A stretch of DNA of 64,000 nt from Sphagnum magellanicum (taxonomy: Eukaryota; Streptophyta; Sphagnopsida; Sphagnales; Sphagnaceae), in the NCBI GenBank assembly GCA_021904315.1, contig CM038919.1, positions 10,416,001-10,480,000 of the forward strand. Direction: 5' to 3'. The notes below the pieces were generated by a model. It made no database searches. It was not told the origin of the DNA and worked only from the letters and a program-made list of their open reading frames with translations. This document shows positions 2,448-58,630 of the stretch, one piece after another. Each line of letters opens with the position of its first letter. The stretch's first letter is position 1. A program made the translations under genes and the position numbers.

Positions 2448-3550
2448 TGTCGCAACCCTAGCCTTTGGCTTACGACCAAGGCAAAGGGGTTGCAAGGTTG
2501 CGAGCCTAGTAGTAGACCCGGGAGGCACATCACATGCTCCCGGGAGTGCAAAGAGTGCAAAGAGTGCAAAGAGTCCAGAGAGTGTGAGGGAGTGAACCCT
2601 CACACTCCCAAGTGAACTCCCACATTGGGAGTTGGTGAGAGTTGGAGTCCCGTAGGAACTCCCGAAACTTTAGAGCGCGTTTTGAGGGGTCAAAACTCCA
2701 TGGCTGGTTACGATCTTTATATCAATGGAAAGCTTTCAAAGTTTAGATATCCAAAATGGGCTCGCATTGCTCATTTGGATATCCGAAACACAAGTTATGG
2801 CCAAAAGAAGGGGCGAGAGTCGAATTCCCGGGAGTCTCCCAGTTTTGACTCCCGACCACTAAAAGTCGGGAATCGACCCGAAATACTTGGGTGCAGAAAA
2901 CGTGCGACATACCGTTGAAAAGGTCTCGACGAGATCTACAACTTTGCTTCAGACGGCGAGTCGATCGGAGGTCTGCTCCGAAAGTTATGAAGCTTCAAAG
3001 TCGCGGGAGTCCCGAAGTTGCGCGATTTCGGGACTCCCACGCGGGAGTCCCGGGACAAAAAGGCCATTTGGATGCCACCCCCGCGGCGAGTCACAGAGTA
3101 TACTATAAAGGGGAAGTGGTTGGCTTCCCCAAGGGGGAAGGTGCCGGCTTCCCCACCAAAGGGAGTGAGGTGGTGGCTTACTCCCGAGCTCGGAGTGTGT
3201 GTGTGTTCAAAGTGAGTCCGAGTTCACCCGTGGCTTGTCCCAACACCAAAAGGATTCAACATGAGTCCCAAGGAGGAAGGTGATGGCTTCCCCCAAGGTT
3301 CGGGCCGTGGCTCTTCCTAGCACCAAAGGTGCTCCAACTTTGGACTAACCACTTGGAGTGGTTCATGGAGGGTCCGTGTGAGTGAGTCAAGCTTGTCCAT
3401 TCTTCCTAGTCTTTCCCGGGATTTCTAGCACGCCCCTCTCACCCCTTTCTAGTGCTAGAAGTCGGGATCGTGCCCCAGGTTCCAACCGCTTCCGCATTGT
3501 CGCATACTTGGACCCTCGAGGGGGTCCACAAGGAACTTGGGGGCGCGACA
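2448..3550 (+). repeat. 5' long terminal repeat
   Basis: The LTR opens with TGTCGC and closes with GCGACA, a perfect 6-bp inverted end pair of the TG...CA type. It is G+C richer than its surroundings and carries repeated 'gggagtcccg'-like words. A TATA-like 'tatactataaag' near 3098 could be its promoter. The reverse complement of 51089-52013 aligns along its whole length. Confidence 0.85.
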
Positions 3551-3564
3551 TTTGGTATCAGAGC
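3551..3564 (+). other. Primer binding site, initiator-Met tRNA
   Basis: The bases right after the LTR read TTTGGTATCAGAGC. TGGTATCAGAGC is the standard plant retrotransposon primer site complementary to the 3' end of initiator tRNA-Met. It fixes the right end of the LTR and the direction of the element. Confidence 0.85.
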
Positions 3565-4500
3565 TCGGGGAAAGCTCGATCCACTTCTTGGAGAGTCCTG
3601 ATGGCACCAAAGAAGACCCGCAAGCTAGTCCAAGAGACCGTGGTGGAAGAAACCACCCAAGACCTAGATGTTCCTCCCGAACCTTTGAGGGAGGAGGAAC
3701 AAGACCATTCCGAAGATAAGGAAGACCGTGTTAGCCTTGAGGAGCATGAAAATGAAGAGGAACAACCAAATGGAGTCCTCTTCACCCCGGAACAATTGGA
3801 GGTCCTACTCAAGATGAATAGGCCCGATTTTAGTGAGTTGGTTGCGGCCCTCAAGGGAGGTGCATCCAAAAGTGTGGGATTCATGCCCGCTAGGCTCGGG
3901 AACTTTGAGGGGGCCCGGGATCGAAAGGTTGTGGATCCTTGGCTTGCGGAGATAGAGGATTACCTTCATGCCGCCAAGGTTGGTCGGCATTCGACTGTGG
4001 AACTTGCCCGATCATATTTGAAGGGCTATGCCTCCACATGGTGGAGGACGGTGAGACAAGAAAAGGGGGAAAAACCCAAACAATTCCAAGGTTCGGGTTT
4101 TAAACCCAAGGGAAATTTTATTAAGAAGGGGGCTCCTTTCAAAGCGAGCTAACCCAAGAAAGTGCCCAAAGAATGGAGCTCCGGTTGGAGGAGCTCAAGG
4201 CACCCATAGAGGTGCACTTTGCGGATGGGATTCCCCATCCCACCAAGTTGCAAGGAAAAGATGTGCCCCTCCAATTGGGGAATTGGAGAGGCAAGGTGGA
4301 TTTGTTGGTTTCCACCTTAGGATCCCATCCAAGAATGGGATTGTGCAAGTGAAGGCACATGAAGTGCCTAGTGTGGGTGGGACCACCATCCAATTGTGCC
4401 CACGACTTGGGTTGGGCAACCCCCGAGTGATGCAAATGAGGAAGTGCCCATGGTCACACAACTTGAAGAAGCAAAAGAAATATATACCATGATGAGGACA

Positions 4501-11200: not shown

Positions 11201-14200
11201 TTCTATTTTAAATACCGTGTTAGAGTATCCATGTTTTGAGATTTATATAAGGGGACAAAGGTTTAAAGATCAGTTTTCACTTAATTGAAACCTTATGGGT
11301 CAAACAAACATCAACTCAAATATCTTTGTGAATGATATCCAACAATTTTCTTAATGAAAACTGGTTTAAACTCCTAGTCAATTCTCATTCCATTTCTGAT
11401 ACCTGCCCAACACTCATTTTGAACTTGCTAGAAAAGGCCATAGCCTTAATATGATGAACCACTTGCTTACATAGGGAATTCGTATCCCCACCACTTCATG
11501 GATTCGACATTATGATATCTCATTTTTCTTTTCAAACTCTCATCTTGTGCATTTTAAAAATTTAAAAATCTAGTCTAAATATGATTTGATTTTTTTTCTT
11601 AAATTTGAAAAATTTGCCAAAGTGTTGAATACCCCAAAATTGAAAAATAACCCTCATTCTTTGAACTCCAAAATGCAGCAGATGCAGTTTTCTTTGACAT
11701 GTCCAATAGTGCATATGTTGTAAAGGTTGTTGAATTAAATGACATCCCTGTGACTGATGCAATGATTCATGTTGGCCCCTTCATGCATGCTGCACTGCTG
11801 TTGACTTGCACAAGAGGGACAAAAATAGGGTTTGCTGGCCATGGAAACAGTAATTAGCTCAATTCCAAGGGAGCTGCTGTTTCTTATCTGTTGGAGCTTT
11901 TGCTGCATGCTGACTTGTTGTGTTGTCCATTTAAAAAAGAAGACAATAAATAAATTTCTGCTCTCTTTTGTGAATTTTTTGTGAGGGACTATTATTATTG
12001 TGCACACAAATATTTCCATGTTCAAAAGTTTGCCACTTTCAGACTAGCTCCATTAGGTAGGGTTTGCATAGTAATATTTAAATGTTGATTTTGGGCAAGT
12101 AATAAATCTTCATATGATAGAATGCTTATAGAAGACATCACACAATACTATTACTATTATTTATTTATTTATTTATTTACTGGTTATAATGATTGACGCA
12201 TTTATCATATGTTTATATGGGTGGATTGCTATTAGAACACCTGCACCAACAGCAAATAATATGACCTGTTCACACTCCTTTGGATAGCATTGAAATAGTG
12301 TCAAACGCAGTTTCTGCTCCAATGGTCTGGCAAAGGGAAATAACTCTCCTTTATTAGCCAACCATAATGACTGGGCCCAGGTGATGACATTTAAATAATC
12401 TGTTACTTTCTGTGTTTTTTTTTGGGGCTGTCTCGCCATTTTTTGTATGGAAATTGAGAAAAAATTGGAAATTTTTTTTTCTGCTGAAAGTTTGACTAAT
12501 TTGCTAATTTTTTTGTTAAAATTTTGCCAAAAAATGGATACCAAAAAAAGAAAAAAGAAAAGAAAAACAGTGGTCACTTCATCCTACATGGAGAAGGATT
12601 ATGCTGAAACTAGCTATGGGTCTAAAACAAGGATCTAATCTCGAGCTTGGAAATGGGGGGTCTCAGGCCAGCTGGAGGAGCAATAATGTGAAGAATGTGG
12701 GACCACTCATACTATTTCAGAGACCCACTTGCTTGATGCAGGAGGAAGTACCTCGCCTAGTTTGTTTCCTTATTTTGTAGGAATGCAAACTATTGTACTC
12801 TTCAAAGTCCTACCCATGTTGGCCAGTTCTTGACTTTAGATTGGTTTTGGTTCCACAAAACAACAGAACCCCGTCCATTTCTGCTCCATTCCTGAAATAA
12901 AAATAATTCAGGTTCTGGTTCGAAGCAATCTGTTCTGAAATCGATCATTAACTGCCAGTTAACCCTCAATTCCAAAACTTCAAAAAAAAAAAAAATCCAT
13001 TTTCTATAATTCCAGTTCTGGTTTCTAGATTTTTTGACATCTAGTTTGTGCTACCTGATGGCCTTTAAATTCTTTCTTGTTTTTAATACCTTTCGACATT
13101 TTCCAAATGTTTATAAGAATTTTGTAGGGTTTTAATAAAATTAATCCAGTTCCAAAAATCAGACTCAGTCATGAACCAGAATCACACATTCTAATTGGCC
13201 AAACTGGGCAACTACCCAACACTGGTACTAACTGGGCTTACAGCATCCAACCAAGAAACTCAAAATATCATGCCTTTCTCAAGACTACTTTTGCACAAAA
13301 TTTCTCTCAACATGAGAAATTTGACAAAGATAGCAAACGACCTTCTCCTTCACTTCTCCTTTAGGCCATAAATAGATCATTATAATAGTGCTCATGACCC
13401 AATGCTGTTGTGACATGATGGTGTGCATGCAAGCATCTCCTGAATGGATAGCCTGGTGGAATAGGTTTGGGGCATGTTTTTTGTTTGTCCCATAAAAAAT
13501 GTTTCTGGACACCCAGAAGATCCCTACACCTTGTTTTGGAAACAAAGGAAGAAATGTGTTATACTTGGATCTCCCCTTCCCCCTCGCCCTACATGTTAGG
13601 GGGGCCACACCAAAAAGTTGTGACAAAAGAGGGAAAGTTGTGAAAAAAGCATAAACTTGAAATTATACAGAAGGACGACAAAACCAAAGAAATATCCAAG
13701 GACATATTTAATAGTGAGGATCTTGTATCATAAATTCATGATAGCTTGGCAAGCCACGCACTTCAGGGCCAAAAAAAGCCCAAAGGCTGAACAATACCTT
13801 CAGTTATATGCTGCAAAGAGTATTATTCTCTTTCCTTTCAACTCACATTTTGGAGAAAGAGCTTGGACAAAGAAGTACAGCGTTCTATAATATGGAACTT
13901 GCCATATGGTACTTCTAACCTGGGAAAGAGACCCTTTTTTTTGGACATTTCAATAAGGTGGAAAGTGCAACAAGAGCAAAACCACTTTGATTTCAGTTTG
14001 AGGCAGAAAAAAATGTTAAGTACTATTTTCAGGCTTTTTTTTTTTTTTTCCCCCCCCTCTTTTGTTAGATGGTTTGCCCAAAGTTTCCCCTTCACCTACA
14101 TAAGTGGGCCAAAGTGTCGCCACTATATCTTCACATACAAACTTTTATTTTGGGGGAGCTTATAAAGTTGCAGAGTTTTAGTTTTTGTTTAGGTTTTAAT

Positions 14201-14370
14201 TTCTTTTTTGGTTGTTGGTGTGAGGAGCCAATAAAAAAGAGAGAGGGGTGGGCTGGGTACTCGTGAAGCACATTATCTAATTAATGGAAGGATACCCCCT
14301 GTGTCAATTATTAATCGAAGGCTACAGCACTTCTTTTTAGCACTTTTAATTTTCAATTTCGCTATTTGGC
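8263..14370. other. AT-rich intergenic DNA without a supported gene
   Basis: Very A+T rich with long poly-A/T runs and no frame resembling a known protein. 10500-10900 is a low-complexity 'aacaacaagag'-like tract that gives a spurious Leu/Ser-rich frame on the reverse strand. 12156-12179 is a TTAT/TTTA microsatellite. 8800-9110 is a copy of dispersed repeat B. Confidence 0.5.
8800..9110 (+). repeat. Dispersed repeat family B, copy 1
   Basis: It shares with 28300-28610, in the same orientation, an ordered set of words: 'cacatgta'/'tacatgtg' before 'ataaaagacttttga' or 'gtaaaagacttttga', then a poly-A/T stretch, 'gtgttttt/gtacttttt', 'aaatg', 'atcgtcaa/atcatcaa', and 'cctttgcaaaa'. No protein reading. 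Family unknown. Confidence 0.4.
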
Positions 14371-14391
14371 TATATATATATTTATATCGCC
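14371..14391 (+). promoter_or_regulatory. Candidate TATA box of the first LEA_2 gene
   Basis: A tatatatatatttatat run sits just before the composition changes from AT-rich to a pyrimidine-rich, CpG-containing leader. Position and composition fit a core promoter for the downstream gene, though the distance to the start codon (about 1.75 kb) would need a long or intron-bearing leader. Confidence 0.35.
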
Positions 14392-14399
14392 AGGAAAAA

Positions 14400-16134
14400 A
14401 ACAAATGCTGGTACTTCCTTCCGGGCGAGAAACATTAGTCTCCTGTGTCCACTGAATGTTCCAAACAAGGGGCTTCCTTCTTGTGAGTCGCAAGCGCGGC
14501 CCTGGCTATGGCGGTCGCGTCTCTCTTGCGCGCTTCCTAATGCGCTCGCTCCGCTTTCCTTTCTCGTCTCCGGTCTGTCTCTCGCTCTCCAACAAAAACA
14601 ACGCAGTGTCTTCTTCAGATAAACCTTCTGCTACACAACTCGTCATTTGAGTATGCATTATTTTCGCACCTCTCTGGTTCTTTGTTTTTTATTTTGATGC
14701 TGTATATGCCGTTGGTTCCGTTGTTGTTGTTGTTGTTTTCTTTTCTTTCCTCGCATTTTTTCTTCGTGTTTCTTCGGTTTGACTTGCCGGGGGGTAATTT
14801 TCTGTTGAGTATCGGCATTGAATATCGAGGTGACTGGTAGACTCATGAATAGGGAGTGTTGTTGTCGTTGTTGATTGCGGTACTTGTCGGTCTAATTCGT
14901 TGACAATCTTGTAGAAGAAGCAGGTTCGGTACTCGTTCTGCTTTCCTGTGCGGAGTTTCGCGTTGCGGCGGGGGGCATGCCTTTGGCTTCTAATCGCCTT
15001 TTTTTCTCCCCCTTTTGCAGAATCGGTAACAGCAGGTCCTCTTTCTTCTCTGATAGACCTTGTGATTTTCTTTCCCTATCTGTGAGAGCTGAGAATGAGA
15101 GAATATTGTGTGCTAGTTTGAAGTATGATGTTGCGGGATCTGGTCAGTTTGGAGCGACGTGACCTCGCCCATCGTTGAGCACTGAATTTCTCGAAGCAGA
15201 ATATGATCGAGTTTATGTTCAAATCGTGATCACTTTGTGTCTAGACCGTTGATGAGACTAAACAAGAGATATTATTTAGATTGTTGTCGACCTACTCACA
15301 GTTGCACGAGTGATGATCCTTCAGCTGAGAAACGAAGGTTTAGTTTTCAGAGGACAAGTTAGTCTTTGTGAGAACACGAGAGCAGCGAGCGGGGCCTTGC
15401 TAATTTTCGCAGAAGTCGTTTCCATGCGAGAGCGCAAAACTGAAGCCGATTCAGCCAACTGCTGTTTTCTTGGTCTTTTTATGTGCCCTGAGGGTTTGAG
15501 CGAAAGATTTAGCAGCCGCTTGAAACAGGTCGGTGGCATGCACTGGTACGCTGAACATTGCTTTTTTCCCTTGACCTCTTCACGGATTGTTGTTAATGAA
15601 GTCCTGGATGTTTGCGGCAGATAATTGCTTGGAGTCACAAGTGGTGAGGGAGGTCCGTGGACGATTACTATGTTGAATTCGGCTCAGCTAGTCCCCTCCT
15701 GCTGCAGCTCAGGGAGCTGTGTGGCGTGATTGAGGTAGCCTGCCAGATCTAAACATGACATGCCCACACTAATGTTAGTACAGAGATTTTAGTTTTTACA
15801 AAGCTCTTGAATTACATCATTGAGAAGATGTCAATCACTTTTTATGAATTTCGTCGAGGAGACATGACCTTCCTGAAAAAGTAGAACTCACCACATGGAA
15901 GAAGAAATTGCTAGAGAATTGGGGTCTTGCTCTGAAGATTGCCTCTATCTTCATCCCTCACATTTGTTTTGTGTTTTCCCCTTCCTGCCTTGTGTGTCCA
16001 TGCTCAGTCAATCAGGACTGTTAGAATGGGTTTCACCCAATATAATCCCTCATGTGCTTGCCTGCATGCAGTGTGACAACCACGCAATATTATAGAGCAA
16101 AGAAATCACTGGGGGATACTGCTTTATACATCAA
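14400..16134 (+). promoter_or_regulatory. GC-richer leader/promoter region of the first LEA_2 gene
   Basis: This stretch is clearly richer in G+C and CpG than the DNA before it, with CT-rich patches near 14530-14600 typical of plant 5' leaders. Open frames inside (for example 15310-15624) do not resemble known proteins and lie on both strands over the same bases, so I take them as chance. A leader intron is likely but I cannot fix its sites. Confidence 0.4.
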
Positions 16135-17106
16135 ATGGGTGATAAGGTCCATCCTGTCACACCAGAGAGCGATTTGAATGCTTCTGAAGAAATTTCTACA
16201 GATCATACAATGACAGATAGGGTCCATCCTGTGACAATAAATAGTGACCACTATGAAGATATCTTGTCTCCGAGTTCATTGGCAGATAGCTTCCATCCAA
16301 CAGCACCTCCTGCACCTTATGAGCCACTTAGTCCTTCAGGAAGATCTGATACAACAGGCTATAGTCAAGCAACTTCAAACTTTCAACCACTCAAAGCATA
16401 CACTGCTCCAGGCTATTTGAGTCCTCCCCACCCCCCACCAACAGTAGTAGGTCGACCTCCTCTGCAATCACCAGCTCACAAGCGAGGTCGAAATGCGTGT
16501 TTCTGTTGCTTGATTGTGTTTTTGTCTATATTTCTGTTGCTCATCCTTGCTGTGGGTACAGCAGCTTTGGTTCTCTGGTTAGTTTACCATCCCAAAATTC
16601 CACATTATAGTGTAGAAGATGCCCAGGTCATAAAGCTGAAGGTCACATCAGGCAATGGTGATAGTTCAAATGTTGGGCAGCCAATCCAGAATCCCATCTT
16701 GAACACTGACATTCTTCTCACTATTCAAGCTCAGAATCCCAACCACAAGATTGGCATATCTTACAGCCAAATCAGCATTGATGGAACTTACCAAGGAGCA
16801 AGCGTTGGGCAATGCAACATACCTGGATTCTATCAGGCTGTTGACAATACAACAACCTTGAGTGCTCGACTGAATGTCACAAATTCTCAGCTCACAGACA
16901 GTCAGGGAACTGCGTTGCAGACAGATATAAGCAACAATGACATAGGATTGCTAGGTAGAGTAGATGTCAAGGTAGGTATGAAAATAGGGAGTTGGACAAC
17001 CCCTCATGTCTGGATCCATGTAGAGTGCAACATTCAAGTTAGCCCCCCTACTTCTCCTCAGGGCGCAAAATTATTGAGTAAGAGTTGCCACTGGAAGTGG
17101 AAGTGA
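16135..17106 (+). CDS. LEA_2 / NDR1-HIN1-like (NHL) membrane protein
   Basis: A complete, intronless 323-residue protein starting at an ATG. In order: a Pro/Ser-rich cytosolic N-terminus (1-118) with a basic stretch 'HKRGR'; a single membrane segment at about 121-150 preceded by cysteines (C122, C124, C125); the family's 'YHP+IPHYSV' junction at 151-160; and a LEA_2 beta domain from about 160 to the end, with the hallmark 'NPN+KI.ISY' at 201-210 and possible N-glycosylation sites. NHL proteins are plasma-membrane proteins linked to defence and stress; the exact role of this one is unknown. The N-terminal '(D/E)RV(H/Y)P' motif known from plant NHLs occurs three times here (residues 3-7, 28-32, 51-55), which is unusual. 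It is convergent with a second family member at 20805-21491. Confidence 0.92.
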   Translation: MGDKVHPVTPESDLNASEEISTDHTMTDRVHPVTINSDHYEDILSPSSLADSFHPTAPPAPYEPLSPSGRSDTTGYSQATSNFQPLKAYTAPGYLSPPHPPPTVVGRPPLQSPAHKRGRNACFCCLIVFLSIFLLLILAVGTAALVLWLVYHPKIPHYSVEDAQVIKLKVTSGNGDSSNVGQPIQNPILNTDILLTIQAQNPNHKIGISYSQISIDGTYQGASVGQCNIPGFYQAVDNTTTLSARLNVTNSQLTDSQGTALQTDISNNDIGLLGRVDVKVGMKIGSWTTPHVWIHVECNIQVSPPTSPQGAKLLSKSCHWKWK

Positions 17107-20665: not shown

Positions 20666-20819
20666 TGGGTAATCGAGATGGATGCGGAATATGGCACTAG
20701 TGGAGCAGATAGATCATGCCAGTATATGTTGACTTAGGTTATCGACGTAACTGGGTAATCCAGATGGATGCCAATTTCGACACCAGTGGAGTGGAGCAGA
20801 TAGATCATGATAGCATACG
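20666..20819 (+). repeat. Two-copy direct repeat at the 3' side of the second LEA_2 gene
   Basis: 'gggtaatc(g/c)agatggatgc' begins at about 20666 and 20753, and each copy runs on to 'gtggagcagatagatcatg'. The second copy ends at the stop codon of the minus-strand LEA_2 gene, so it lies in that gene's 3' flank. Confidence 0.7.
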
Positions 20820-21491
20820 GCAGCTATGCGACTGTAGGTGTCCAGCGACATGGCCTGACGTGGGTGGTGTCACAATAATATCACAATGAGAGTGTACCCA
20901 AAAAGAGAAGGACTTGTAGATGCCAAACTTCACTTTGGTTTTCACGTCAACATGAGTTTGGAGAGAGATGGCGTTTAGGGCGATTTGCGACAGTAACGAT
21001 GTGTTCACGGAAGGTGTGACCGGAAAATTCTGTGCCTTCACCTCAGCCACCAGAAAAGTTGTATTTTGATGACCTGCAATGAAAGCCGGCACTTGCGTAG
21101 TTTGTCCAATTTGTGTCCCGCTGAACAAAGTGTAGACATTGATCGCCTCGTAGTAAATGCTGATCTTCTTGTTGGGGTTTGTGGCTTCAATGCTGAAGAT
21201 TATGTCCACATCCACCAGAGCTGAAGTTTGATTCTTGTGACTGCCCACCGGCGGTGGTTGTATCACCTGCAATGTAGGAACCTGGACACTTTCTATGGTG
21301 AAGTGAGGCGAATGTGGGTGCAGCGCAAGCCAGATTATCAACGCCGCTATGCCCACAGAAATGATGAGAGACACCAAAAACAAGCACAGCACCGCACAAA
21401 AGCAAAGGCAACAGGCAACCCCTCGCCCAAACCTGCTACTCGCGGGCCTTTTCTGAGGCGCCAGTGGAGTACTCCCCCTGATGTTCTCCAT
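20805..21491 (-). CDS. LEA_2 / NDR1-HIN1-like (NHL) membrane protein, short form
   Basis: A complete, intronless 228-residue protein from an ATG at 21491. A short basic N-terminus (1-24) leads into a Cys-containing membrane segment at about 25-56, then 'HPHSPHFTI' at 58-66 and a LEA_2 domain. That domain has the family's 'NPNKKISIYY' at 105-114, N-glycosylation-type NTT/NTS sites, and a C-terminal 'HCDIIVTPP'. It lacks the long Pro/Ser-rich tail and the 'RVHP' motifs of the neighbour at 16135-17106. The two are clearly of one family but distant, so an old duplication or chance clustering is possible. A (GA)n tract lies about 130 bp upstream. Its role in stress or defence signalling is inferred from the family only. 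Confidence 0.92.
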   Translation of the reverse strand: MENIRGSTPLAPQKRPASSRFGRGVACCLCFCAVLCLFLVSLIISVGIAALIIWLALHPHSPHFTIESVQVPTLQVIQPPPVGSHKNQTSALVDVDIIFSIEATNPNKKISIYYEAINVYTLFSGTQIGQTTQVPAFIAGHQNTTFLVAEVKAQNFPVTPSVNTSLLSQIALNAISLQTHVDVKTKVKFGIYKSFSFWVHSHCDIIVTPPTSGHVAGHLQSHSCRMLS

Positions 21492-21616
21492 GGCGGATGT
21501 CTGATCAACCTTGAAAAACGCTGTCTTGACACTTAACCCAAAGAAAAAAAGAAAAAAGAAAAGACAGAGAAGAGAATCTCTAGTGCTGTCTTAACCCCCA
21601 AAAAAAATGAAAAAAA

Positions 21617-54724: not shown

Positions 54725-54732
54725 AAATCTTT
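54725..54732. repeat. 8-bp target site duplication, left
   Basis: AAATCTTT immediately outside the left inverted end of the hAT element; the identical 8 bp lies outside the right end at 58623-58630. Eight bp is the length made by hAT transposases. Confidence 0.95.
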
Positions 54733-54749
54733 CAGACCTTCTACCACTA
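54733..54749. repeat. hAT terminal inverted repeat, left
   Basis: CAGACCTTCTACCACTA; exact inverse of 58606-58622. The CAG start is common in hAT ends. Confidence 0.95.
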
Positions 54750-54836
54750 CGGTAGTTAACTACTTTAACTATTTTTTTCATCCTTGGGTTGTGACAACCA
54801 CTAAGTTAACTATGCTTATAAGGTCTAGCCTATGAC

Positions 54837-54899
54837 CACCACTATAGTTAACTAACTATTGTGAGCTCAGTGATCATGCACCACTAAAGTTAATTAGCC
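54837..54899 (+). repeat. hAT subterminal direct repeat, left copy
   Basis: Identical to 58467 onward for about 44 bp ('caccactatagttaacta' ... 'gctcagtgatcatgca'), then about 80% alike for a further 19 bp. The two copies are in the same orientation, not inverted. Contains the palindrome TAGTTAACTA. Confidence 0.9.
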
Positions 54900-54939
54900 T
54901 TGGACGGCGAATGCCTTTTATTGAACTTATACAATCTCT

Positions 54940-57497
54940 TCAGACAAGAGAATTGTCATTGTCATTGTCAGTGTCTTCTTCTTCCTTCTCTTCTTCTTCG
55001 CCTCCATCATATAGTGCCATTACTGGCCGCTTTGGAATGTTGTTTTCCCAATTCATTTTCTTGTCAAATGGGGCCACTTCGGCCGGGTTCGTCGGGGTGA
55101 GGTGCTTGTTGATCTTGAGGAACATATTGATCTTTACCAAGCCGGCACGCAACGACGATCATTTTGGAGCCAAGACATCTGACAGGCTGCCCAGGTCGCA
55201 TTCGAGTCCACCCGAGGATGGCTTGTTGGCCAGGATTGCCAAAGCAACTTGCATGAGACATGGCATGCTTGTTTGACAAGCCCACCACTTGCACAGTTCG
55301 GCTGATTCCGGCCACAACTCGATATTGGTTTCAGCGCCAATTCCTTTGAGGATTTGAACTTCGATGTTCACCATCTGTGCTGCCGTCTCGAAGCGCTCGC
55401 CACTCCCATTAATGTCCTTCTTGTCATCATCAACCACAATATCAAAAGCTGTTGACAACAACTCTAATGTCTTGACGCGCTTTGCCGGTCTTTCAAGTCG
55501 CCGAGCTGGGGTACTCCTTGCCATTTGCTGCTTCTTGAGCATAATCGGTGTTGCAACGGTCTCCGCTAAACATTTGATTTTGTTCCATATGAACTGGTTC
55601 ACGAACACAAAGTGCTGCTTCTATAGGCTCTCTTGTGTCCAGCCAACAGGAATATCAAGCCTATCAATGTTAGTCGCATTGATCAACTTCGCTAGGATCT
55701 TTCTAGACGTCATTGGCGGGTACAACATACTTTGTGCGTCGATTAAGTACGAGAACTTGAAATCGGTTTCTTCCAAGACGTTTTTCAGTAGCATGGGCCG
55801 CTCAAGGTTGTTACTGTAAATCTTCTTGGGCTGACGAAGCGCCAATATTGAATGGTACCATTTGAAGTAGCGTTCAGACATTGCCTTGCCAAGAAGCTTC
55901 CGTGCTTCACGAATGGCCGGTTGTAGTACGTCATGTGATCGCGACACTAGATCGGGGTCTTCAGAACCAAGTTGACGACGTACCGGTATTATCAACTAGA
56001 GCGGCTTGCTTACATCGAGGACAGTTGTGTACAAAGAGTATAACATGACGTACACATCGACAATGACAAATGTTTGCATAGCTTGTGCCTTGATCTGAAC
56101 GGCCCGAACCGGCTCAATCATTGAATAAAACTCGATGCACAGTGTGTGGTCCATGTCAGTCAATGGAACTGGTCGATTAAGTTTGCAGTACGCCTTCAAG
56201 AGAGGTTCCCAAGCTATTAGAATTCGCTCCAGTACAAACGCTGTAGATGACCATCGGTGCTGCGGTAAGTTAAGTAGTTTAAGGTACGTTTCCAAGAATT
56301 CAAGCATGGCTTCCTCGAAGGCTCCCTGCAAGTACTTAGACTTGTTCACAGCTTCAATGACCTTCTTGATCTTCTGGAAGAAGTAGTGCGCATCCACATT
56401 CTTACTATTGTTAGGGTCGATTGAGGTGCCAAACGTTTCCGTGAGTGCCAGGTGGATTAGATGTGATATACACCATTCCCACCAAACATCGATCAGAATG
56501 TCTAAGGTATGCTTTACATCGAATCCCGAATCTAAAGTGCTTGTCAGCACATCGAGCATCACCTTAATGCCGAACTTTTCGGGGATGCCTGAAGACCATT
56601 CGTGCAAGATTGTAGACAACTGTTCCGCTTAACGCTCATTGGTAGTCGGTGCAAATCGGCAGACGGCGAGATTGTAACCAATATTGAACCTGGTCAACGT
56701 ATTGAAGCACACTCGCAATGCTAGGTACTTCTGGTTGCTCATCTTGCTCTTTATCAGGTCCAGGTACAACGACAGGTATTTGATCGTAAAGAATGAGCGC
56801 ACCTCAGCGAGTGACATAATGATGATCTTCTTGCACGTGGTGTACAGCTCGACGTGTAGCTTGCGAATGTTGATTGACTTTATTCCACCTTCCCTGATAG
56901 GTAGTTGACGACCAATAAGTTGCCATCTACGGGTCGTGAACGCATTGTACGAGATCGACTGCTCGGCGGACCAAGCTCCCAATTGCACTTCAAACCAGCG
57001 CTTTGGGTCTTTTTTGAAAGTCGGGTCAGATAGATCAAGCTGCTTTTTGATATCTGCTAGCTTCTTGTTAGTTGCCATTGTCTTGGATGAGGTTATGTAA
57101 TTTTTTTGTTGAGGTGGGTGCAAGCGTTTGACGTTCCCATCTTTGTGCACTTAATGACAACTGGCTTGTTGACATTGAAGCACGGGTCCAGCAAGCAGAT
57201 GAACCACTCGACCTTACCCTTGTCAATTAGACGCACGTTGCATTGATTAAGGAAAGACGTTATCTTTTTTAGATCCTTAAACGCGGCGCCCTTGATGATA
57301 GCTGGGAAAATGCCAGCGTTGATGAAATTTTTGATCCGAACCGCCATGATGTCTCCACGCCCAACATTGTCAACCTCAAGTTGCGCCTCTTCATCATCGA
57401 TCTCGACAGGTACGGGTGGTGCCACTTCACCTTCAGCAGTGATATCAACAACAGTGATGCTTCCAGATTCGACGACATCATCTTCTAACCAAACCAT
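54940..57497 (-). pseudogene. hAT transposase, oomycete-like type, with nonsense codons
   Basis: Starts at the ATG at 57497. Parts: an acidic N-terminus; a BED-like zinc-finger region ('EWFICLLDPCF' ... 'CTKMGTSNACTHLN', about residues 95-130); a frame change in an A7 run at 57101-57107; then a long main frame from about 57110 to 54940. The main frame holds 'RWFEVQLGAWSAEQ', 'VLTSTLDSGFDVK' (candidate first catalytic Asp), 'CISHLIHLALTETFG', 'HRWSSTAFVLERI', and a C-terminal hAT dimerisation domain ('WWACQTSMPCLMQVALAIL', then 'PSSGGLECDLGSLSDVLAPK'), ending in an acidic tail. Four stops interrupt it: 56629-56631 TAA, 55996-55998 TAG, 55621-55623 TAG, 55159-55161 TGA. Everything else stays in frame over about 2.1 kb, so decay is slight. 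From memory the closest relatives are oomycete hAT proteins; I cannot verify this here. Confidence 0.85.
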
Positions 57498-57543
57498 GAT
57501 GTGCAGTCCAGCACCAACTTTGCGAAATGAGCAAGGGCGGGCT

Positions 57544-57650
57544 CAGTGGGTGATGATGGTCTCGCAAGGGACGTGGATCTCAGTGGGTGATGGTGGTCTC
57601 GCAAGGGACGTGGATCTTTGTGGGTGATGGTGGTCTAGCAAGGGACGATC
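57544..57650. repeat. Three tandem 37-bp units in the hAT 5' region
   Basis: Units begin at 57544, 57581 and 57618, each reading 'gtgggtgatg(a/g)tggtct(c/a)gcaa' and then 'gggacg'. They lie just upstream of the transposase ATG on its strand, so they are in its leader or promoter. Confidence 0.9.
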
Positions 57651-57885
57651 AATATCTTTGACAATCATGTTGAGATGTCAAGTTCAACTAGAGCTGACAC
57701 TCATGATGTGCGTCAATGACCGTTCTACATCGACTGGCGTGCTTAATGACCGTTTTACATTCACATCGACTGACGCGCGCACGACGATTTTTCGCCATTG
57801 TTTTTTTTTGCGGACTTGTTGCCTCTAAGGGTGTGTGTGTGTTTTGCAAGAGCTCAAGCTCTCCCCCCCCCCCCAATCTTTTCAA

Positions 57886-58135
57886 ATCATAACAAGAGTT
57901 GGATGAATATCCTATTGATTCAATAAAAATAAAATAATCAATAATTGATTGTTTGCTCATAATATTAGATCAAATATGAAGAGCAATACCGTTTGATCAA
58001 TATTTTCGACAATCATAACAAGAGTTGGATGAATATCCTATTGATTCATTAATATATATAAATTAATCAATAATTGATTGCATGCTCATATTAGATCGAA
58101 TATGAAGAGAAGTACCGATTGATATGAATATCTTC
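57886..58135. repeat. Two tandem ~126-bp units in the hAT 5' region
   Basis: 'aacaagagttggatgaatat' starts at 57891 and again at 58017. Both copies continue through 'cctattgattca', 'aatcaataattgattg' and 'aatatgaagag'. They differ by small indels. Confidence 0.85.
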
Positions 58136-58244
58136 GATATTTTAATAGTCAAAGAAATCAATAATATTATTGTATTATTCAATTTGCCAATAATAATCAA
58201 CCCAACAAAAAACGAGCTTTTTAAACTAACAACACCGTGACAAA

Positions 58245-58269
58245 GTGCGTGACGGACTCTGTCACGCAC
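58245..58269. other. Perfect 9-bp hairpin within the hAT 5' region
   Basis: GTGCGTGAC, a 7-base loop, then GTCACGCAC. A short strong stem of this kind in the transposase promoter side could be a protein site; no function is known. Confidence 0.6.
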
Positions 58270-58466
58270 ATTCTTCATACTTAAAGAATGTAAGTGTAGT
58301 AAAAAACGGTGCTTCTCACAGGAATCCCGAGGACCAAGGAGGATTCATGATGCGTTGTGAGTGGGGTACTGTGAGGGACATGGATGAACTGATATATGTG
58401 TATTAGGTACGCAAAGTCCCAGTCCTGCCTGCAGTTAACTACCTATAATGTGTTGGCGCATATATG

Positions 58467-58529
58467 CACCACTATAGTTAACTAACTATTGTGAGCTCAG
58501 TGATCATGCATCACTATAGTTAACTAGCT
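58467..58529 (+). repeat. hAT subterminal direct repeat, right copy
   Basis: Partner of 54837-54899; same orientation. Further 'ccacta'/'agttaac' motifs flank it on both sides. Confidence 0.9.
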
Positions 58530-58605
58530 TCGACAGAGGATCAATATGGCGCACCACTAGTCACCACTTAGTGTACTTAGTGACGTTTTAGTGCCAAAAA
58601 ATTTT

Positions 58606-58622
58606 TAGTGGTAGAAGGTCTG
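58606..58622. repeat. hAT terminal inverted repeat, right
   Basis: TAGTGGTAGAAGGTCTG, the exact reverse complement of 54733-54749. Confidence 0.95.
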
Positions 58623-58630
58623 AAATCTTT
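58623..58630. repeat. 8-bp target site duplication, right
   Basis: AAATCTTT, identical to 54725-54732. Confidence 0.95.

Follow-up and report, generated by a model that had tools for sequence, protein, structure and literature searches.

The window, the whole stretch of 64,000 nucleotides of Sphagnum magellanicum DNA that was analysed, holds at positions 54940–57497 a set of coding blocks that a sequence-only reading had attributed to an oomycete-like hAT transposase. This raised the question of what the feature is and whether it reached a peat moss genome by horizontal transfer. The analyses described here indicate that it is very probably an inactivated copy of a cut-and-paste transposon, a divergent hAT that proliferated within a Sphagnum lineage.

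The range 54940–57497 did hold the minus-strand transposase blocks, but was too short; the inverted repeats and the target duplication extended the hAT-type element to 3,890 bp (54733–58622). The left end is formed by the 17-bp terminal inverted repeat CAGACCTTCTACCACTA (54733–54749, plus strand) and the right end by the same sequence inverted (58606–58622, minus strand; TAGTGGTAGAAGGTCTG on the plus strand), both identified by repeat comparison. These ends are flanked by a perfect 8-bp target-site duplication, AAATCTTT, the left (54725–54732) and right (58623–58630) copies of which match at 8/8 positions. Repeat comparison also located a 71-nt subterminal repeat (54828–54898, plus strand) with 90% likeness to a second copy at 58458–58528 (plus strand) and, within the element and outside the gene, a 37-bp unit repeated three times in tandem (57542–57652, plus strand).

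The transposase gene of the element lies on the minus strand, is broken by stops and frameshifts, and was read as a series of remnants. The N-terminal part (57093–57497, minus strand), delimited by frames and family comparison, carries a finger-like Cys/His stretch, and the family frame starts approximately 9 bases further upstream. The Cys/His spacing resembles by eye the BED-like finger that had been claimed, but Pfam reports no zf-BED for this stretch and found none in the family proteins searched for it. An N-terminal BED-type zinc finger is common, albeit not universal, in the hAT superfamily. Frames and alignment assigned the next two minus-strand remnants: that at 56629–57150 holds the RWFEVQLGAW block and, in LDLIKSK, the first putative catalytic Asp; that at 55996–56628 holds the second, in DSGFDVK, together with the C.SH.IHLAL and HRWS blocks. 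A middle part (55621–55995, minus strand; frames and protein matches) precedes the remnant at 55159–55608 (minus strand), in which frames, alignment and profile comparison placed a dimerisation-like region, the LECDLGSLSDVLAPK block and the putative catalytic Glu. The C-terminal end follows after a break (54940–55152, minus strand; open frames and protein matches). The 'HRWS', 'DVLTS..DSG.DVK', 'LECD.G.LSDVLAPK' and 'LKIN.HL' blocks named in the sequence-only reading were all recovered in minus-strand frames of 54940–57497.

A search of the genome (438,994,042 bases on 31 contigs) returned at least 35 matching stretches, including that of the window, and 22 of these, distributed over 12 contigs, were near full length, defined as at least 2,339 of the 2,558 query bases; the copy counts are lower bounds. 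The PDB chains most similar to a light-harvesting protein of this genome were 9vfj (a longer chain), followed by 8htu and 7xqp, both from the moss Physcomitrium, and then by 5zji and 1vcr, from maize and pea, an order in keeping with a moss host. Twenty-one copies were aligned, namely that of the window and 20 others; another near-full copy, on C4, a split copy, on C18, and all fragments were left aside. Their pairwise identity ranged from 0.899 to 0.955, with a mean of 0.919. None of the 21 retained an uninterrupted frame, the longest run between stops being 494 residues; the majority sequence of the alignment resolved into a single intronless frame of 854 aa. The element in the window is therefore not a chance likeness, since copies are dispersed in the genome and their majority sequence gives one frame of this length.

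The family tree was star-like, with end branches of median length 0.045 and firm support for only 2/18 inner branches. Ten copies formed one group, designated subfamily B, with support of 100/100 and end branches of 0.022–0.046, versus 0.041–0.061 in the remaining copies (A). Ten A elements measured 3,672–3,890 bp and five B elements 5,797–6,754 bp, with the same gene as A. The additional DNA of the B copies (for example L026:1618 to L062:1019, on one contig) lies outside the gene; 42-bp tandem repeats adjoin the left end of B elements, which also contain inner copies of the terminal repeat. In addition, nine short, MITE-like elements of 428–1,267 bp were found with the exact ends of the family and fitting 8-bp duplications (among them G000:C1:20404758-20405185, C4:20757353-20757825 and C12:427738-428207), and these look like non-autonomous derivatives of the family.

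The hAT transposases are DDE enzymes in which the Glu lies in the C-terminal dimerisation region. The putative catalytic residues were largely kept among the aligned copies, the Asp of LDLIKSK in 21/21, the Asp of SDSGSDVK in 19/21 and the Glu of LECDLGS in 19/21, and their order of Asp, Asp and Glu is presumably the hAT catalytic pattern. Homology to accepted hAT transposases was found in the C-terminal region only. With the protein of another Sphagnum hAT (L032, in which the Pfam domain Dimer_Tnp_hAT scores above its cut-off) as query, the family was reached at E 2.2e-5, with 30% identity over 146 C-terminal residues; in the reverse direction the best match to the L032 group had an E of 1.1e-3 and the others were weaker. 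Profile comparison with other Sphagnum hATs aligned 66 columns, including the Glu blocks (E 9e-4), at a probability of only 22.7%. Dimer_Tnp_hAT itself scored below its curated cut-off in the family, with 12.7 bits against 21.4, in 1/8 copies and at the expected place, the cut-off being a detection threshold and not a biological definition. The majority protein had no match to Pfam up to E 10, and structure prediction of the transposase gave a mean pLDDT of 30.

The ends of the family are likewise of hAT type. Terminal inverted repeats in this superfamily are described as short, 10–25 bp (PMC3942097), and those of the family are 17 bp long, with 74 exact repeat ends genome-wide and none for the reversed control sequence. 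Duplications of 8 bp were present in 10 of the 11 A copies examined (nine perfect and one matching at 7/8 positions) as well as in the single B copy traced to its two ends; no target duplication was found for the A copy L017. On homology, duplication length and ends, membership of the family in the hAT superfamily is well supported as a sequence-based assignment, and the earlier identification of a hAT transposase in a plant genome is supported.

The duplications revealed a marked preference at the insertion site. The ten from A copies and the one from the B copy had been accepted on the match between left and right, ignoring any motif, and nAnnnnTn, with A at position 2 and T at position 7, was present in 11/11. 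Across the genome the same pattern adjoined 67 of the 74 exact repeat ends, compared with approximately 7.5 expected by chance given the window's A+T content (0.1008 per end); the 74 ends are partly dependent, as both ends of any one element have a duplication in common and a number of ends sit within B copies. The opposite pattern, nTnnnnAn, was found at 0/74 of these ends. Among 24 different duplications, which comprise the 11 motif-blind ones and 13 found by means of the nAnnnnTn pattern (which predetermined positions 2 and 7), A occupied position 3 in 18 and T position 6 in 19. The pattern nnnTAnnn occurred in none of the 11 motif-blind duplications and in one of 24 once the pattern-found ones were added. 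Target choice in this family is thus strongly biased to nAnnnnTn, often nAAnnTTn. A literature search for either motif together with hAT and target site duplication returned no paper, a weak test given that such motifs are often published only as logos.

Target-site choice has partly been used to separate hAT groups (PMC3942097, PMC3517528), and comparison on this basis sets the Sphagnum family apart. It shares with the Ac/Hermes group the 8-bp duplication, short inverted repeats, the order of putative DDE residues and a C-terminal dimerisation-like block. Hermes, which we take as representative of the Ac group, differs in its target. It is described as integrating at nTnnnnAn (PMC2803484), the pattern absent from all 74 ends here, of which 67 show nAnnnnTn. 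The Buster group is alike in its 8-bp duplication and hAT architecture, whereas the target given for its member Mar is nnnTAnnn (PMC3517528), which none of the motif-blind Sphagnum duplications contained. Similarity to the Tip (Tip100/BuT2) group lies in the 8-bp duplication.

A second, diverse hAT group was encountered in the same genome, consisting of L032 (G000:C11:10400685-10402463) and the related loci L029–L036. It resembles the family in being hAT, in a C-terminal region that is approximately 30% identical, and in high G+C and CpG. Unlike the family, it has a Dimer_Tnp_hAT match above cut-off (61.2 bits in L032), a match to the Hermes-type DNA-binding domain PF10683 in 2/4 stretches scanned (best E 5.6e-5, with matches listed to E 1), an open frame of 652 aa in L032, and sister families at 34–45% identity.

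Sister families of this kind were not found for the nAnnnnTn family in its host genome. When the whole protein was used as query (E up to 0.001; 53 of 63 candidates scored), all matches longer than 100 residues were at least 84% identical, and identities of 69–76% were confined to fragments of 33–93 residues. For an 87-residue query from the C-terminus, with E allowed to reach 10 (39/39 candidates scored), identity fell from at least 78% directly to 26–33%. Neither query found in the genome an intermediate relative between the family and the level of approximately 30%. The L032 group by contrast formed a series of sister families, 34–45% alike, and the genome is rich in other hATs, with at least 146 Dimer_Tnp_hAT matches among the 150 of 671 candidates scored. 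The hAT lineage is real and isolated, and its target motif is unusual; the isolation fits a recent arrival by transfer and also a lone surviving moss lineage.

Base composition had been offered as a further hint of transfer. The coding part is indeed richer in G+C and CpG than its flanks (G+C 0.465 and CpG observed/expected 0.915, against 0.294 and 0.336 on the left and 0.407 and 0.275 on the right), and in the majority gene G+C reached 0.505, third-position G+C 0.617 and CpG observed/expected 1.02. The corresponding values in four other Sphagnum hAT stretches were 0.52–0.54, 0.66–0.71 and 0.91–1.30; in eight stretches of host genes, four of them UGT-like and four light-harvesting, the CpG ratio was 0.09–0.71. 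Because other Sphagnum hATs share its level, high CpG is not special to the family and its composition is no foreign mark; the enrichment is real, but as a hint of transfer it is a weak sign.

Elsewhere in the window, a 256-aa frame at 3382–4152 (plus strand), by eye a retrotransposon gag remnant with no Pfam hit, had G+C of 0.52 and CpG of 0.61, and one 2-kb interval (14001–16000) had CpG of 0.80. Two genes for LEA_2-domain proteins were also present, approximately 4 kb apart and on opposite strands (16096–17106, plus; 20805–21590, minus).

Decay of the copies was dominated by C-to-T changes, with rates at CG, CHG and CHH of 0.137, 0.159 and 0.046 in A and of 0.088, 0.099 and 0.029 in B. The rate in CHG equalled or exceeded that in CG, and changes in CHH were approximately three to four times rarer. 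C-to-T decay at CG and CHG, and less at CHH, is the pattern expected from plant methylation, and points to a family long resident in a plant genome that methylates its DNA.

Selection on the gene was assessed with a context-preserving shuffle. Values of dN/dS computed by NG86 (0.36 in A and 0.32 in B), which would indicate strong constraint, had been dropped in its favour owing to the extreme C-to-T bias. The ratio N/S was 1.32 within A versus a neutral value of 1.51 (sd 0.07), and 1.17 within B versus 1.55 (sd 0.10), in a test that treats copies as independent, which they are not fully within subfamilies. Stops numbered 51 in A where 78 were expected, and 34 in B where 46 were expected. The majority genes of A and B, compared directly, gave no sign of constraint. 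Their 50 differences comprised 32 nonsynonymous (32.5 expected), 18 synonymous (15.5 expected) and no stops (2.0 expected). The evidence is mixed: it suggests some selection on the transposase gene during the expansion of the family, and the enzyme may have been functional in the moss.

A rough age was obtained from a rate of approximately 1.7–2.0e-9 changes per site and year, itself inferred by pairing the Sphagnum Ks peak of 0.406 with the duplication at 102–122 Ma, both as given in PMC9946827. The end branches (median 0.045) then place a rough upper value near 25 Myr, and changes at A/T sites alone (0.0055) correspond, again roughly, to 3 Myr.

The history proposed for the element would start from an intronless gene for an 854-aa DDE transposase, a frame taken from the majority of 21 copies and a DDE assignment made by motif. 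By analogy with Hermes, this enzyme would have bound the 17-bp inverted and the subterminal repeats, excised the element, and integrated it at a target cut with a stagger of 8 bp. The insertion sites show a strong bias to nAnnnnTn targets, often nAAnnTTn. Two waves of spread can be seen, one of the shorter form A of approximately 3.7–3.9 kb and one of the longer form B of 5.8–6.75 kb, with shorter branches and the same gene, and small derivatives of 428–1267 bp have the ends of the family. All 21 copies are now broken, mainly by C-to-T changes at CG and CHG for which plant DNA methylation is the probable cause.

Where this transposon came from can be read in several ways. Contamination of the assembly by a plant-associated microbe would agree with a G+C and CpG above those of the flanks, but near-full copies lie on 12 contigs with different 8-bp duplications at their borders, and their decay, CHG included, is of the plant methylation type. 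Contamination was rejected on these dispersed copies, duplications and CG/CHG decay and is given next to no credence; by the same evidence the family is genuinely integrated in the host genome. An even chance is given to long vertical descent of this hAT lineage within mosses, with a single surviving master that burst in Sphagnum and no transfer from outside plants. This agrees with the many other hATs in the genome, including L032-type sister families 34–45% alike, and with the G+C and CpG shared by four other Sphagnum hAT stretches, so that composition is not foreign. A survey of plant hATs favours spread by vertical descent within the eudicots, the monocots and the green algae (PMC6027215). 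Against vertical descent stands the lack of any relative between the family and approximately 30% identity, unlike the L032 group, and the same survey reports no hAT homologue in Physcomitrella, where divergent ones may have been missed (PMC6027215); this lowers the likelihood of a broad moss lineage.

Horizontal transfer into Sphagnum from a non-plant eukaryote (fungus, animal, protist or other), followed by a burst, is a possible origin held with some reserve. It would account for the isolation of the family, its star-like tree, and the CpG ratio of 1.02 in the majority gene versus 0.09–0.71 in host genes, as if the progenitor had been little exposed to methylation, although ratios of 0.91–1.30 in the four other Sphagnum hAT stretches weaken the last point. 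Nor did a donor-side relative appear in viral, prokaryote, plasmid, phage or PDB collections, which are not eukaryote genomes. Specifically, none was found in part of viral_contigs and in genome_contigs (prokaryote) by a search that needs short exact peptides and reaches only close relatives, in the plasmid search with one 149-aa piece, in the phage search with the whole protein, or in the PDB sequence search. The donor having been specifically an oomycete, a special case of such transfer, is quite improbable. P. infestans is described as carrying hATs (PMC3522703). The Ac/Daysleeper yardstick is one of flowering-plant hATs, whereas the host here is a moss. Our impression is that similar blocks occur in Phytophthora hATs. 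The fullest version, a separate major hAT group defined by the palindromic nAnnnnTn that a non-plant eukaryote, possibly an oomycete, passed horizontally to peat mosses, where it then burst, is regarded as unlikely.

Reference genomes within the genus are described for two Sphagnum species (PMC9946827). A moss genome here harbours a hAT lineage set apart even from its other hATs. Its clean preference for nAnnnnTn, the opposite of the Hermes nTnnnnAn, would add a third pattern beside the Buster nnnTAnnn, and the family would offer a handle on how hAT transposases read their target.
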